Translations under genes and position numbers: made by a program
NCBI GenBank assembly: GCA_026874595.1
Contig: CM049317.1
Location: 17,881,382-17,945,381, forward strand
Source of the DNA: Sipunculus nudus
Lineage: Eukaryota; Annelida; Sipuncula; Golfingiida; Sipunculidae
Direction: 5' to 3'
Length of the DNA stretch: 64,000 bases
Notes under the pieces: model-generated
Told to the model about the DNA's origin: nothing
Seen by the model: only the letters and a program-made list of their open reading frames with translations
The model's database searches: none
Shown: positions 4,901-63,918 of the stretch, in pieces
How positions within the stretch are numbered: position 1 is the stretch's first letter
Layout of the letters: each line of letters begins with the position of its first letter

Positions 4901-7900
4901 TGACAGGGCAGTATCACACGCTTCCTCTCATTTTGTTACCCCGACCCAGTGACCTACAAAGCGCTCACTCTGGATGAGCGCCTCGGCTGAGACTTAAACT
5001 CACGATCTCCCGGCTTTGAGTCAAGTGCTCAACCCCTGAGCCACAAAAAAGCCAGTATATAACTATTGTTAAATATGTACAAACATGTCAGCAGAGCAGC
5101 AGGTGTTTAATTGGCTCCCTATTTGACAGAGACGTAAAACGATACATTTGCTCAACCAAGGTCTAAGGTATTCTGGTTGGATATGTCATTGCTTGTAACG
5201 CAACGAGAATTTTCCAAGTATTTATCGTCAGACTTTTTTTCACATCAGTCAAAGAGAGTCAATAGTACTTTATAAGGTAATCATGTGACTTTTTTTCAAT
5301 GTGACGTCATGAGCAATGGGGAAGGTAGAAGGAAGTACTAAATGACCGACCTTGGGCATTAGAGTTGAGGATCAGCACACCATGAGCATTTCCCGAGTTT
5401 TCCAGAACTTCGTAGTAAGGATGTACACCGTAAAGGTTATCAGCCTGAAGAAGAAGGCAAAATAATAATACCGGATATGGTAGAAAAAGTTTAATTACCT
5501 CCAAAGTTTTACTTTGAAAATGCGGTTCAAGCAGAAATTATTCAGACCATTCGTCTAGGCTTACTATATTGACTTTTTCATTTATTTTTTTTTTACTTCC
5601 CCAACATGTGAATTTGATATTACAAAATAAAAAAAAATAATGGAAAATGTTCACCCCCAGAGTTATCTGTACAAATACTAATGTCCTACAATACATCCCC
5701 TCAACCTTAACCATAAACAACCAATAGTTCATTGTGTGCATACTGCTTTACATTTTAACAATCCACATATATTCCATTGTTTTAAAATACACCCCAGACA
5801 AAATTTTCTTCTATGTAATATATTATATGTATTAAAATTATCCGGCCACTTGTAAAAGATGCTTTAATATAGTTTGTTTGAGATAACCTAGGGCCGATAT
5901 ATGTGGAATCAATTTTATATATGACGGATATCAGAAAATAATACAAACCTTATCATCCTTACAAAGTTTCTTTACCTGTACAGGTTGATCTCTGGCGAAC
6001 ATTCCCCAGGATCTCCAGTTCATGTCATGTTTCAGCTGAGTGTGTTCAGTCTCACCAAATCCGTAAACATTGGAGCTTGGGAGCTTTACAGCGATCTGCA
6101 GGTACTGGTCTGAGAAGATAAGACCTCCGTGAGACGTGTCAAATCTGAGGAAAACAAGAGAATGCAAGACCTCCATCAGACGTGTCAAATCTGTTAAAAA
6201 CAAGAGAATACAATACCTCCGTGAGACGTGTAAAATGTGTGGAAAACAAGAGAATACAAGCCATCCGTGAGCCTGTCAAATCTATAGGAAAGAGAAGACG
6301 GGATATCTGTTAGACATGTCGAAAAAGAGAAGATAAAACCTCCGTGAGATGTGTCAGATATGTCGGAATAGAGAAGATCTCCGTGGGATGTTGTAGATAT
6401 TTCAAAGTAGAGAATATGCGACCGCGTTGAGATGTGAATAAAATGAGAAGACGGGACATACGTGAGACTTGGGGAATTTTTTAGATAATAGGAGAGAATG
6501 AGTACTTTGTGAGACTACAAATCTGTAAAAAAATTAGTCGAGACACGACCTCATTGTTGTGAAAACTAGCAGAAAGAAAATAAGTGTGGTGCGAGAGGCT
6601 AATCTGTAAAATAAAAAAGAAGAAGATAAGACTACCATGAGCGAGCAATGTCAAGACCTTGGAAAATGAACGACGACATTTCCACGAGACGTTAATTTTG
6701 TAGAAAATAAGAGCCAATAAGACCTCCAGAAAACAAGTCAAATTCGAGGAAGTAAGCATAATAAGACCTCAGTGAGATGTAAAATATTAGTAACAATCCG
6801 TAAGTGTGTCAGATCTAGGGTAAACAAAAGAAGATAAGACATCGCTGAATAGTTCCTAGCCGGTAATGGTCACAAAGATGAACCATGTAAAACATAAGTA
6901 AAGAATGCTTTGTAAATGACCAATAATAAGATAACTCACATGACAGTGTTATCTGCTTTCCTTGTGACTTTGAAGTTGAAGGACGGGGTGTCGCTGAACG
7001 TGATAGTGTACAGAGTGTTGGTAGCGGCAGAGGCCGGGCTCTCGATGTTGAGAGGAGGTTCCCAACGCGAGGTGGCTGGATCATAAATCTACAATGATCA
7101 AAACGATAACATGTATATATTAAACCTGTAACCAGGTGCGGCAATGTATTAACTATCCGGTAAAGCTTCCATGTGGCGCAGCCGAGGAGCGTGTTGCAGA
7201 GGGTCAGCGTTCTCTGGAGTTCGAATCCCGTCTTTACAGATCTCCATATGGTGTGGGCATTAACCACGAGGGAGCGCCCTTGTCACGTTGAGGTTAATAA
7301 GGCGCCCGCTGTGGCTTGTTGAGGTGTTTGCAATGCCTAATAGGCTAATAGGAGAAAGAAAAGCTACACGAATGAACATACAAAATAAATAAACAACACG
7401 GAAAATGATAAAATTTGTTGAAGCTGATTTGAGACTCTAAACCTACCCTTTTTACCGATTTGTCAGATTTACAAAAGACCTTCTCAATTCTTGAGTCGAT
7501 TTATGAAGCTTTTGGAAATGTAGCACGTGTATTAAAAATCGATAGGTCGAGCACGTATGCCTGTTGCAAGGCCATGGTCAAGGGATGCTACTATTATTAT
7601 GTCTAATTATAAATCTAAATTACAATGCTTTTATAGTCTATTTATGTCGGCACATTTACGCTTTCGTTTAGATATGCATTGGTTTGGAAACCAGTGGAGC
7701 GCCGTTTATCCGAACATCTCGGGGGGACAAGGTTAATAGTTGGAATAAACGAACGTGCGGTTTAACGGTCGTATGTAAAATTAAAACACCGCGAGGTGTT
7801 AACACAGTTGGTCTTCACTTACCAGAGTTAACAGATATTGACCGAAACAGAATAATCTTTGATAAATACATAATTCTTTTCATATTGAGCAAAACAAACG

Positions 7901-10375
7901 ATCACTCAAGCAATAACGTTTTCGATCATTTTATTCAGATTATTTGTCACTGAAATACCAATAAACATCTCGCCGAACGCGCGTGCATATCCCATGACAC
8001 TTTTACCGTTCTTAGTGCTGTCTCTTTTGTTCGGACAAACGAACTCAAGCTTCTTATGCACGTTGATATTACATGCACCGATGTAAAGACTGGTTACATA
8101 AACAATCACAAATTTGAGGAAAGTGAAGTTGATTATTAAAAGGTGTGCGGGGATCATCGTAAATAGTGGTACTTGGCTTTTGACACCAAAAATCAACCTG
8201 ATGTAAAATGTCAGTGTGGCTTATACAGAAAAAAGGTTTTGCTTGCATTATATTAACGCTCAAATAATACTTCAGATCAACAACTTTCCTTATTATTGAA
8301 AGTTCGGATAAAGGTAAGGATAAGTGCTACATGGCAAGGGTCCGATTTAAATAGGCTGCTCTGGAATACTTGATGAAAAATGCTTTACAACTATTGTTGA
8401 CAAACTGCATGAACGCTCTCTGGTGATAAATAAATATTAACGAATGATATGGAAATACGTATTCTTGGACTCCCTGGAGTCACCATTAATTATGACATAC
8501 ATAATTCAGGATACCTTGTTTTGCCTGATTTTGGCAGTTTGCGTGGTTTAGTAAGTATAATTAATGCTCACCTTAACCCTAATACGTTGGTTAGTTTGAA
8601 ACTCCACGTCAACTCTTATGTCATTAATATCGGCACCGAACCACGATGGCGTCGTTTTACGTTTCAGGTCGACTCTCCAGCCTTTGGCTGTTTGTGTGGG
8701 GTTACCGTTCATGTAGTAACCGTGAGACTTAGGCATGAAGCACCACGGGACACCTTGAGTAGAGGAGGAACACCAGTAGCATCCTCTAGCGATGCACGTT
8801 GCTTCAGTGGCTCCCGGATCGGGATGGCAATCGATACGCTCGTTGTCTGTGTAACCGGAAGGACATACGGCGCCCCCTTGCGACACAGACGGGTCACTGA
8901 AGCAGTAGGGATAGCCGGGAGCCTCGCACCAGAGACAGCCTTTGGCTTTGCATGATTCTGGTGACGCTCCCGACTCGGGGTGACAGTCTACACGTTGATT
9001 TGGAGGGATGGTCGATGGGCATACTGTGTCGTCTATGAAGCAATAGGGAACTCCTGAGGATACAGAATACTTTATTATTGATTTTCTTACAAATATTTTA
9101 CAAATGGATATTGTATTACGTAACCTGCATTTTCTGTGTTACATAAAAGGTTTCTTTTTTTGTACCCTTATAATTTTGTAAAAAGTTATTTTTAAGTAAT
9201 TAATGTAACCTTTAGCTATAAAGCTAGTCTGTAAATGTAGTCAATAGATCTGCCTGTTTGCCTTTTATCATGTGTTTTTCATGCTGATTCTATGTGTTTT
9301 TCATGCTAATTCTATGTGTTTTTCATGCTGATTCTATGTGTTTTTCATGCTAATTCTATGTGTTTTTCATGCTAATTCTATGTGTTTTTCATGCTGATTC
9401 TATGTGTTTTTCATGCTGATGTATTGCTGTGATATAATAGGATATTTTATAATTGACTATCTTATATTCTTAAAGATATTATATTTTTACTGATATTTTT
9501 TGTGATAAAGATTAGGTTTCCTATTGGGTACAATTCTTATCATTTTTTGTTGTTGTTGTAATTATTGATTGCTATAAAAATATGTGTATACGTCATCCAT
9601 AATAAGACATTTTGATCGGCATCTTGATCGCAATGGGACTACTATGGATATAAGTTTTTAGTAAACCTTTTAGAACTATCCCAGGTGCATATCAGGGAGC
9701 TTTTTGTTTAATATTATGAATATATATACTTGTTACATGAATAAAATCAATCAATCATTTAACGTGCGATAACAAACTGCGCAGACTCGGATTATCAAAA
9801 GTACGCCTCTGCTGTTTTGGGTTTATGGGCGTCAAAATATGACCCCCACAATGCACCGCAGCTTCTGCATACACAAACGGCTTAGGTAAAAAATGTAATC
9901 CGTTTAAATATGTGGATTAGATTTGTTTAAGATAAATTACATAAACACGTGTGTTTTTGTGGTAAGGAATTCACTGAATAAGTAATCTTGTGTAAGTATA
10001 TGCATGTGAATTACAAATGTTTCCTTGAAATGTAACAAATTGTTATTTTAAAGTTTGATAGTTGAGATAAGAAGTCCCGGCTGTCCCTCAGTGCCCACCA
10101 GGAAGAGATTTGTTTCGAGTACGAACGACCTCTAGCGGAGTGCATGGTGATACAGTAAAACATGGATATTGCGGCCATCTGCGACATTAATAGTCGGTAT
10201 GGATTTCATTAACAGTTCTTGGCTATGTAATAAGTTTGGCTCTTGATTTGAGGGAAGTTCATTCATATAACACATTATACTAACTAGTATTTGGTTAAAT
10301 GTGTTATATTCTAGCATTTCAAATACAGCTACAGCCATACTGACTGGTAAAGTAAACAAACGAGACAGCTGCTAG

Positions 10376-12600: not shown

Positions 12601-13964
12601 AAATCAAACATACACATAGATATATACGACCTATATGAACAGATTTGCATGCACTCTTAAGGTACGTGCGTTATGACCTGTGCTGTACGTGTCACACGGG
12701 TCACGATCGAATGTGGTACTCCAGAACTTAAATATAAAAAAAAAAACACACAGAAAGACAATTCTTCAAATTTATAATGTTATTATTTATATAATACATC
12801 TGCCATTGTGTTTTTTATTAATCAGCTATTTCCCCGTCTTCAGCGTCATTGTGGAAGATACCACTGCATTAACAGCCACCGCATAATAGGTTCAGATTTA
12901 AAAAAAATATATTCTTAATCTTTATCTTATTCTCTAAATCTGTATATTGATCCTAATACGTGTACTTTTTATTGTTCTCTGTAATATCTTTAACGGTAAG
13001 TGTTTACAGATCTGTGTTCAGTAATTTATCTAGATCATTATATGATATATTTTCCTAAATACTGTCATTATGCCAAATAATACCCGTATTTATACGTAAT
13101 ATTTGATTGAAAATTAGCCATTGTATAGGAACTTTTTCTCTATCTTGTTCAGTTAATTTGCTTTAGATTTAATTTTGAACATCCACAGTGTGATTCAATT
13201 CTCCTGAGATTTAAGTCTGGGATTTTAATAAAGCTCGAGGCTTCTGTGTGTTTCTTCAGCAGACGTCTATATGTTATTCAGATAGCAACATCTGATTCTA
13301 ATTATCTACGATCCATTATATATGATTATGAAGTGCTTCGAACCACACCATTTCAGATCCAAAAAGAAAAAAAAACCATAATTGCTTGGGATACCAGTCT
13401 AACGTCTGGGAAGTGGTGTAGTAGTTTCCCGGACAACAAAAGATGTCGCTAATGGTGACTAACGGTGTGGCAGCAAGCGAGGAATCCTGGTAACTGGGTT
13501 CCAGGAACTCGATGTCACCTCGTGCCGAGAATGAAAATTTCTGAGTTCAATCCGAGCTTAAGAAATGATCTGAGAATAAATTTCCTGAAGTTGTGGTCCA
13601 TGAAATCCATTCGTGCCCTCTTCTGTGTACTACAATAACTAAAACCTCATTCATGGTGTGGCATTTTAGACACATGACATCTGTCTATGGAGTTCCAGGA
13701 CAGATCTCATACACACATTCATTCGCACGACACACTTACAGATCCAAAATCCTGCCATTTTGCCTGGGACTTGAAAATTACAATAATGAAGGCAATGGAG
13801 AAACTATAGGAGAAAAAATTGACAACATTAATTTCAAATTTAACGATTATAAAGAATATGGTTGTCTTTTTTGTTTTTGGAATGTTGTAAAACCCGGGGA
13901 ACTACATTGCCGTTAGATATCGGTGACTTGGTAGTGTAAATGTATACAACAAAATTGTAGTTCT

Positions 13965-14315
13965 TAGGCTAAAAAAAAATAAAAGATATGGTTCTCAGGC
14001 ACCGCCCGTATCAATTTTAAACCCCCGCATCAAACATTTTTATTTTTATTTTCAACAGAAACTTACCAATTTTGAGCTGCAGCCGCTCGGAAATTTCTTT
14101 CAAGAAGATAAAATCATCCATTTTCCTCTATTATGTAGTGCTTTTACTTGTTTAGCAAAATAAATCTGTTATTTTCATGCTTTTCCCTTATCATTTGACA
14201 TTTTTATCGAAACATACCAAAAAATAAAAAATAAAAAATAAAAAAAAAACGCCCGCCCGCATTGATTTCTGAAAAAGGTGCCTGAGAACCATACCTTTTT
14301 TTTATGTTGGCCTTA
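13965..14315. mobile_element. MITE-like inverted-repeat element, copy 1
   Basis: Roughly 350 bp bounded by inverted ends TTAGGC(T/C)AAAA...ATGGTTCTCAGGCACC and its complement. The interior has CGCCCGCCCGCATTGATTTC near one end and AT-rich DNA with TTTATCGAAACATACC. No coding capacity, so non-autonomous. It lies between genes A and B. Confidence 0.7.

Positions 14316-19444: not shown

Positions 19445-40886
<21,442 letters not shown>

Positions 40887-50727: not shown

Positions 50728-63918
<13,191 letters not shown>

Follow-up and report, generated by a model that had tools for sequence, protein, structure and literature searches.

The human interferon-induced gene 6-16/G1P3/IFI6, the subject of a 1995 paper, carries a splice-donor minisatellite with a 12 bp unit, and alternative use of its sites is reported. 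The closest described systems are the 'mirage' minisatellites of lancelets, found in the globin genes BflGb6 and BflGb9 and in Adh3, troponin C and PGBD5 (PMC3087553, PMC3902484). In the sections of these two papers drawn on here, regular splicing is reported to be undisturbed, unit numbers vary by haplotype and intron gain is proposed; the Adh3 mirage has, as cited there, a unit length of 10-72 bp, and imperfect or degenerate copies occur in PGBD5 and BflGb13. The VNTR in intron 6 of TERT consists of 38-nt repeats with a reported effect on splicing (relevant passage of PMC8150890). In potato RdRp an intron was gained by tandem duplication across an intron-exon boundary, and the duplication carried a putative branch site, a pyrimidine tract and a 3' splice site (relevant passage of PMC4974935). 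A literature search with most subscription papers outside its scope returned only the lancelet papers for the structure described below, and cases from other organisms may exist.

The window, a stretch of 64,000 nucleotides, contains genes A and B on the minus strand and gene C on the plus strand; a further paralog, gene D, lies beyond it (71.7-97.5 kb in window coordinates, plus strand). Judged from its sequence, gene A is a minus-strand gene for a starch-digesting, maltase-glucoamylase-like GH31 enzyme. Its predicted protein has GH31 and trefoil domains (Pfam PF00088, PF13802, PF01055), and its best solved relatives are maltase-glucoamylase, sucrase-isomaltase and lysosomal alpha-glucosidase. 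The original prediction described a tandem array of exon-start copies in the intron before exon 5 of gene A; the minus-strand position of the gene, the sharing of the array with paralog B and a donor-side duplication in paralog C go beyond it. The elements concerned are as follows.

6940..7090, minus strand: gene A exon 4, with donor TCAT/GTGAGT and split codon AT/A
6939..6145, minus strand: gene A intron 4, 795 nt, GT..AG
5976..6144, minus strand: gene A exon 5, coding for part of the GH31 N-terminal domain, the seed of the array; first exon base 6144
6145..6848, minus strand: junction-seeded tandem array in gene A intron 4, 17 units from d1 (6190-6145) to d17 (6848-6815, partial)
6145..6281, minus strand: units d1-d3, the youngest-looking, 45-46 nt, 83-89% identical to the exon junction
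6282..6477, minus strand: units d4-d8, 38-41 nt, with the intron part shortened in most
6478..6848, minus strand: units d9-d17, older-looking, 29-54 nt, d17 partial
36500..36668, minus strand: paralog B exon 5
36669..36890, minus strand: homologous junction array in paralog B intron 4, five units
54224..54553, plus strand: paralog C intron 4, the equivalent position, without array

Exon 4 of gene A (ending ..GTC AT) and exon 5 (starting A TTT GAC ACG TCT CAC at 6144) join in frame, and the real acceptor of exon 5 reads TTTTCCTCAG/ATTTGACACG, with the slash at the splice site. Other repeats lie in and around the window. An intron of gene A holds a 22-bp minisatellite at 9270-9420 (6.9 copies, 96% matches), and a dispersed repeat occurs in three places (13951-14315, 52600-52853 and 56343-56698; 73-87% identical, one copy inverted). 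Upstream of the cluster, at about -99.8 to -98.0 kb and -84.2 to -82.3 kb in window coordinates, there are long open frames of short repeated peptides; these are further large tandem arrays.

The array unit has two parts, the terminal 13 nt of intron 4 and the opening 33 nt of exon 5. Cyclic (wraparound) alignment of gene A intron 4 with this junction unit scores 410, against a maximum of 46 among 60 dinucleotide shuffles, and the TRF program finds a period of 46 (3.9 copies, 80% matches) at 6112-6291, in agreement with the claim that the array fills the intron. The resemblance to exon 5 is above chance in the distal part as well: the stretch more than 500 nt from the exon scores 98 by itself and the stretch more than 620 nt away scores 60 (maxima 34 and 26 respectively, 30 shuffles each). 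The units are tandem, as predicted, but the predicted figure of about 15 units of 46 bp gives way to 17 units of which only those near the exon are 45-46 nt long. TRF reports a 39-bp period (1.9 copies) at 6340-6414, and the autocorrelation of the array has its peak at 46 near the exon and includes 39 among the peaks in the middle part. No Rfam family matches at gathering scores. A 201-base query (6100-6300) was searched at the DNA level against the whole genome, an assembly of 1,426,538,692 bases in 153 contigs, and was placed, among the best candidates scored, at three sites, all of them at the A and B arrays; at the sensitivity of that search, an origin of the array from a dispersed repeat or transposon is rejected. 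The contig sizes of the assembly (C1 111 Mb, C12 79 Mb, C17 61 Mb, and at most 0.24 Mb in the 18 contigs sampled from C18 on) suggest 17 chromosomes. Searches of the genome for the hemocyanin and GFP families returned no match, but neither did those of the 14 control genomes.

Identity to the exon junction is 0.89 in d1, 0.85 in d2 and 0.83 in d3, and 0.50-0.79 in the units farther away. The expected fall of similarity with distance is thus seen as a drop after d1-d3, but not beyond it, since substitution distance is unrelated to position in d4-d17 (Spearman 0.02, p 0.95; all 17 units 0.44, p 0.077). A smooth age gradient along the array is therefore not supported. When the intronic units of both genes, 22 in total, are compared all against all, 11 are closest to an exon junction, three are ties and eight (A6-A9, A16, A17, B2 and B5) are nearer another unit, and with decay that is not a clean age gradient this means that unit-by-unit growth from the exon is not established. 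Adjacent units of gene A share somewhat more changes than other pairs (10:7 vs 35:71, one-sided p 0.04), which argues that copying within the array also took place. In the exon-like part, the columns of the two exon CpGs are retained at 0.66, against 0.81 for other columns and 0.78 for other C/G columns. Changes at CpG comprise 16 transitions and 10 transversions, compared with 18 and 25 at other C/G columns, a transition excess that is not significant (p 0.14). Retention by codon position (0.71, 0.78, 0.69) gives no coding pattern in the decay of the units.

The direction of copying is indicated by the exon. The protein segment of exon 5 aligns with the chains of maltase-glucoamylase, sucrase-isomaltase and lysosomal alpha-glucosidase and has conserved counterparts in paralogs B, C and D; together with the lower retention of CpG columns in the units, this identifies the exon sequence as the ancestral state and bears out the proposal of a minisatellite seeded from a coding splice junction.

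Paralog B carries the same array in its intron 4, which scores 186 with the junction unit (maximum 42, 60 shuffles), at a length of 222 nt compared with 704 nt in A. The array is absent from intron 4 of C (score 22, shuffle maximum 36) and from intron 4 of D (22 vs 26 with the A unit, 22 vs 30 with the D unit). Since it is found in A and B and missing from C and D, it would have arisen in the A/B line, or in one of the two genes and then been passed to the other. In a BLAST comparison, and in a test of introns 4, 5 and 6, the array is the only part of the homologous A and B introns that aligns. The units of the two arrays align best in register 0 (116, against 54-76 in other registers), and the summed pairwise identities of matched units are 217, compared with 216 for one permuted pairing. 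One-to-one orthology of the A and B units is thus suggestive only, as the matched pairing hardly beats the permuted one. At synonymous sites, two exons of A and B resemble each other far more than the others compared.

5976-6144 in A and 36500-36668 in B, minus strand: exon 5
5337-5450 in A and 35894-36009 in B, minus strand: exon 6

In a comparison of ten exons, with exon 9 lacking a usable frame and exons 5 and 6 picked after inspection, fourfold sites differ at 8 of 37 in these two exons and at 80 of 149 in the seven others (p 0.0004). Gene conversion or some constraint could account for this closeness. Since the intervening intron 5 cannot be aligned, a single gene-conversion tract over both exons is not supported.

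The copies bring potential splice sites into the intron. An AG is kept at seven of the 16 decoy positions of gene A (6191, 6282, 6523, 6566, 6604, 6658 and 6815; units d1, d3, d9, d10, d11, d12 and d16) and CAG at all four positions in units d1-d4 of gene B (36715, 36761, 36805 and 36848). The two copies nearest the exon in A had been expected to retain CAG-like acceptors. This is true of d1, whose decoy acceptor ends at 6191, but not of the copy at 6236: d2 has lost its AG, the exon-like part there being preceded by CACAC rather than CAG, and the next decoy acceptor is that of d3, ending at 6282. For a test of reading frames, intronic AGs were retained if they followed C or T and were preceded by at least half pyrimidines; 12 sites in A (one just past the array) and six in B pass this filter, including 10 of the 11 unit-aligned decoy AGs, while site 6658 failed it and was left out. 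Use of any of these 18 filtered upstream sites would lead to an in-frame stop (18/18), and the stop predicted after the acceptor at 6190/6191 is among the results confirmed.

An acceptor weight matrix was built from 23 acceptors of the cluster, with the exon-5 sites left out for the scoring of decoys; it is small and its scores are rough. The real acceptors of exon 5 score 6.0 in A and 6.8 in B, each the highest in its own array. The best decoys reach 5.7 in A (6604) and 5.3 in B (36761), and A 6191 scores 4.4; the median of the 23 cluster acceptors is 3.0, and among 427 background AGs the 99th percentile lies at 5.1. Array AGs above that median are 6191, 6604 and 6724 in A and 36761 and 36830 in B, so that with this small matrix some decoys score on a par with real acceptors of the cluster.

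Local copies of exon-intron junctions are not confined to exon 5. A scan of 97 coding blocks of genes A-D, taken from tblastn between the paralogs and probably including some repeats that are not exons, found such copies at seven blocks: exon 5 of A and of B, one donor-side case each in A and C, and three in D, two of which belong to one array. The donor-side cases are the following.

about -490 to -1150 in window coordinates (contig about 17,880,230-17,880,890), outside the window, minus strand: donor-side junction array of gene A, after the exon coding DMNEPANF
61647..61785, plus strand: donor-side junction duplication of paralog C, the last 60 nt of a coding exon (end 61706) and its donor, repeated once
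95973-96228 in window coordinates, outside the window, plus strand: donor-side junction array of paralog D, exon end and donor

The gene A donor-side array consists of 48 bp x 14.5 copies (82% matches) and scores 696 beyond its first unit (maximum 68, 40 shuffles); its unit is not found in the corresponding introns of B, C and D (20 in each, against shuffle maxima of 42, 30 and 28). The real donor of the DMNEPANF exon in A is GTAGGA, placed as in the paralogs, and ten of the listed copies carry GTAAGT; reading on past the real donor reaches a stop 8 nt inside the intron. The matching donor of gene B, at 30042 on the minus strand, has an apparent GC (CCAA/GCAAGT), which makes this a probable GC-AG intron. 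The duplication in C (73 bp, about two copies, 77%) is backed by TRF and BLAST and is weak in the cyclic test beyond the first unit (34, shuffle maximum 28); a stop follows at intron nucleotide 58 past its real donor. The D array (99 bp x 2.8 copies, 79%) is strong in the cyclic test (168 vs 30). A looser cut-off adds one donor-side copy in A near -27.1 kb. An earlier scan of 28 exons in the first part of genes A, B and C gave no junction copies besides exon 5, except for a B exon that matched its counterpart exon in C, and 12 exons from the first part of C and D gave none.

These copies are no commoner at coding blocks (7/97, 7.2%) than at matched random non-coding segments (31/291, 10.7%), the latter drawn from the same regions and possibly falling inside arrays. 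Junctions as duplication hotspots are thus not supported; short tandem duplication is common in this DNA, and its general rate explains arrays at junctions with no special device required. Where a duplication does cross a junction, it probably persists because splicing still works at the outer copy.

We consider it very likely that a tandem duplication spanning the junction occurred in the A/B line and grew into a minisatellite. The anatomy of the array, the homology of the exon, the presence of the array in A and B and its absence from C and D, the recurrence of such copies in the cluster and the lack of enrichment at junctions all enter into this reading. The order of events would begin with a short tandem duplication across the boundary of intron 4 and exon 5. 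Selection would then have preserved the coding copy at the exon end of the array, whereas those in the intron, under no coding constraint, would have accumulated point mutations and small deletions, so that the former is intact and the latter are degraded. The outermost, exon-side acceptor would still keep the reading frame and the tested upstream copies would bring a premature stop. Splicing would be expected to proceed correctly at the real outer site, likely bypassing an array that is probably mostly neutral.

As a likely by-product of such growth, the real acceptor would now depend on a branch point within the former coding sequence of unit d1, because the upstream AGs would cut the old branch region off from the real AG. 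The first AG downstream of a branch point is used and AGs within about 12-15 nt of it are bypassed, as stated in the relevant passage of PMC1431707. With the closest preceding AG ending 27 nt before the exon, the branch point should fall within roughly 42 nt of the real acceptor, and in A this candidate stretch is exon-derived except for its last 13 nt. Two candidate motifs occur in it: CTGAT, whose A lies at 6176, 32 nt before base 6144, and, right at the margin, TTGAC, whose A lies at 6185, a distance of 41 nt. The only motif of this pattern in B is TTGAC, likewise at 41 nt. From these motifs we infer a branch point of exon origin for intron 4. A bolder proposition holds that junction duplication is so frequent in this genome that genes carry long strings of decoy sites, some closer to the consensus than the real one, as after the DMNEPANF exon of A (GTAAGT in ten downstream copies, GTAGGA in the real donor); position and exon definition rather than site strength would then set splicing, with the branch point of intron 4 rebuilt from coding sequence. 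This is put forward only tentatively and seems to us on the unlikely side.

Other explanations start from the same features. The decoys might have been selected for regulation, as a set of poison acceptors by which premature stops and decay lower or tune the mRNA of A and B. Such a role would fit the stops that follow all 18 filtered upstream AGs, the CAG kept by all four proximal decoys of B, the scores of A 6191, A 6604 and B 36761, which resemble those of real acceptors, and the alignment of the array alone between the homologous A and B introns. Yet the AG survives in only 7 of 16 decoys of A, about as the decay of the units predicts (a rough estimate from mean identity squared), conservation within the units is lower in the intron part (0.62) than in the exon-like part (0.73), and local copies are at least as frequent at random positions as at coding blocks. 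We consider a regulatory function improbable; the original suggestion of poison acceptors stands in principle, since every tested site leads to a stop, but their use, or selection on them as regulators, is unsupported.

That the units are what is left of complete exon duplications, such as dead alternative exons, is harder still to credit and is contradicted by their extent: they do carry exon sequence behind an acceptor, but they repeat no more than the first 33 nt of the exon, in tandem units of 29-54 nt that lack the remainder of the exon and a donor. The reverse history, in which the repeat came first and the start of exon 5 was taken from a satellite, might be read from the way the exon start is embedded in the array, and is the least credible of all, as that start codes for a segment common to maltase-glucoamylase and to the array-less paralogs C and D; to the extent of this protein homology, it is refuted. 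A junction duplication in the A/B line, with subsequent decay of its intronic copies, remains the reading that we prefer.

With near-identical splice-site strings, graded decay and two paralogs, the locus amounts to a natural experiment on splice-site choice. Such arrays bear on which copy wins, why it is the outer one and what effect decoys closer to the consensus have, and they hint at how coding sequence can rebuild the 3' end of an intron, a proposed step towards intron gain. If duplication is indeed so frequent that position prevails over site strength, they would be natural libraries for the choice of the spliceosome among near-equal sites and a source of new introns.

Among the known systems, the IFI6 minisatellite is said to lie on the donor side with a short unit, whereas the present array is on the acceptor side. 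The TERT intron 6 VNTR is likewise an intronic tandem repeat, with no exon-junction seed described in the passage cited above. As in the cited account of potato RdRp, the duplication runs from the 3' end of an intron into the following exon; there one duplication produced a new intron, whereas here the array lies within an old intron and no new intron is visible. The likeness to the lancelet mirages, as presented in the sections used here, is closer: the tandem units are intronic and lie across an exon-intron boundary, acceptor- and donor-side cases both occur, unit length varies, and AG or GT survives in many units, though not in all (here 7/16 decoys in A and 4/4 in B). The units of BflGb6 are 81-100% identical to each other, unlike those of the present array, which are 50-89% identical to the junction; given the imperfect cases in the literature, we do not treat high unit identity as defining mirages. 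The array also differs from the mirages of those sections in having up to 17 units, in being common to two paralogs and in recurring at other junctions of the cluster. The genome here, at 1.43 Gb, exceeds the ~0.5 Gb of lancelets. Should the host not be a lancelet, arrays of this type at junctions would be no lancelet peculiarity. On sequence grounds, we count the intron 4 array shared by genes A and B as a further case of the mirage kind.
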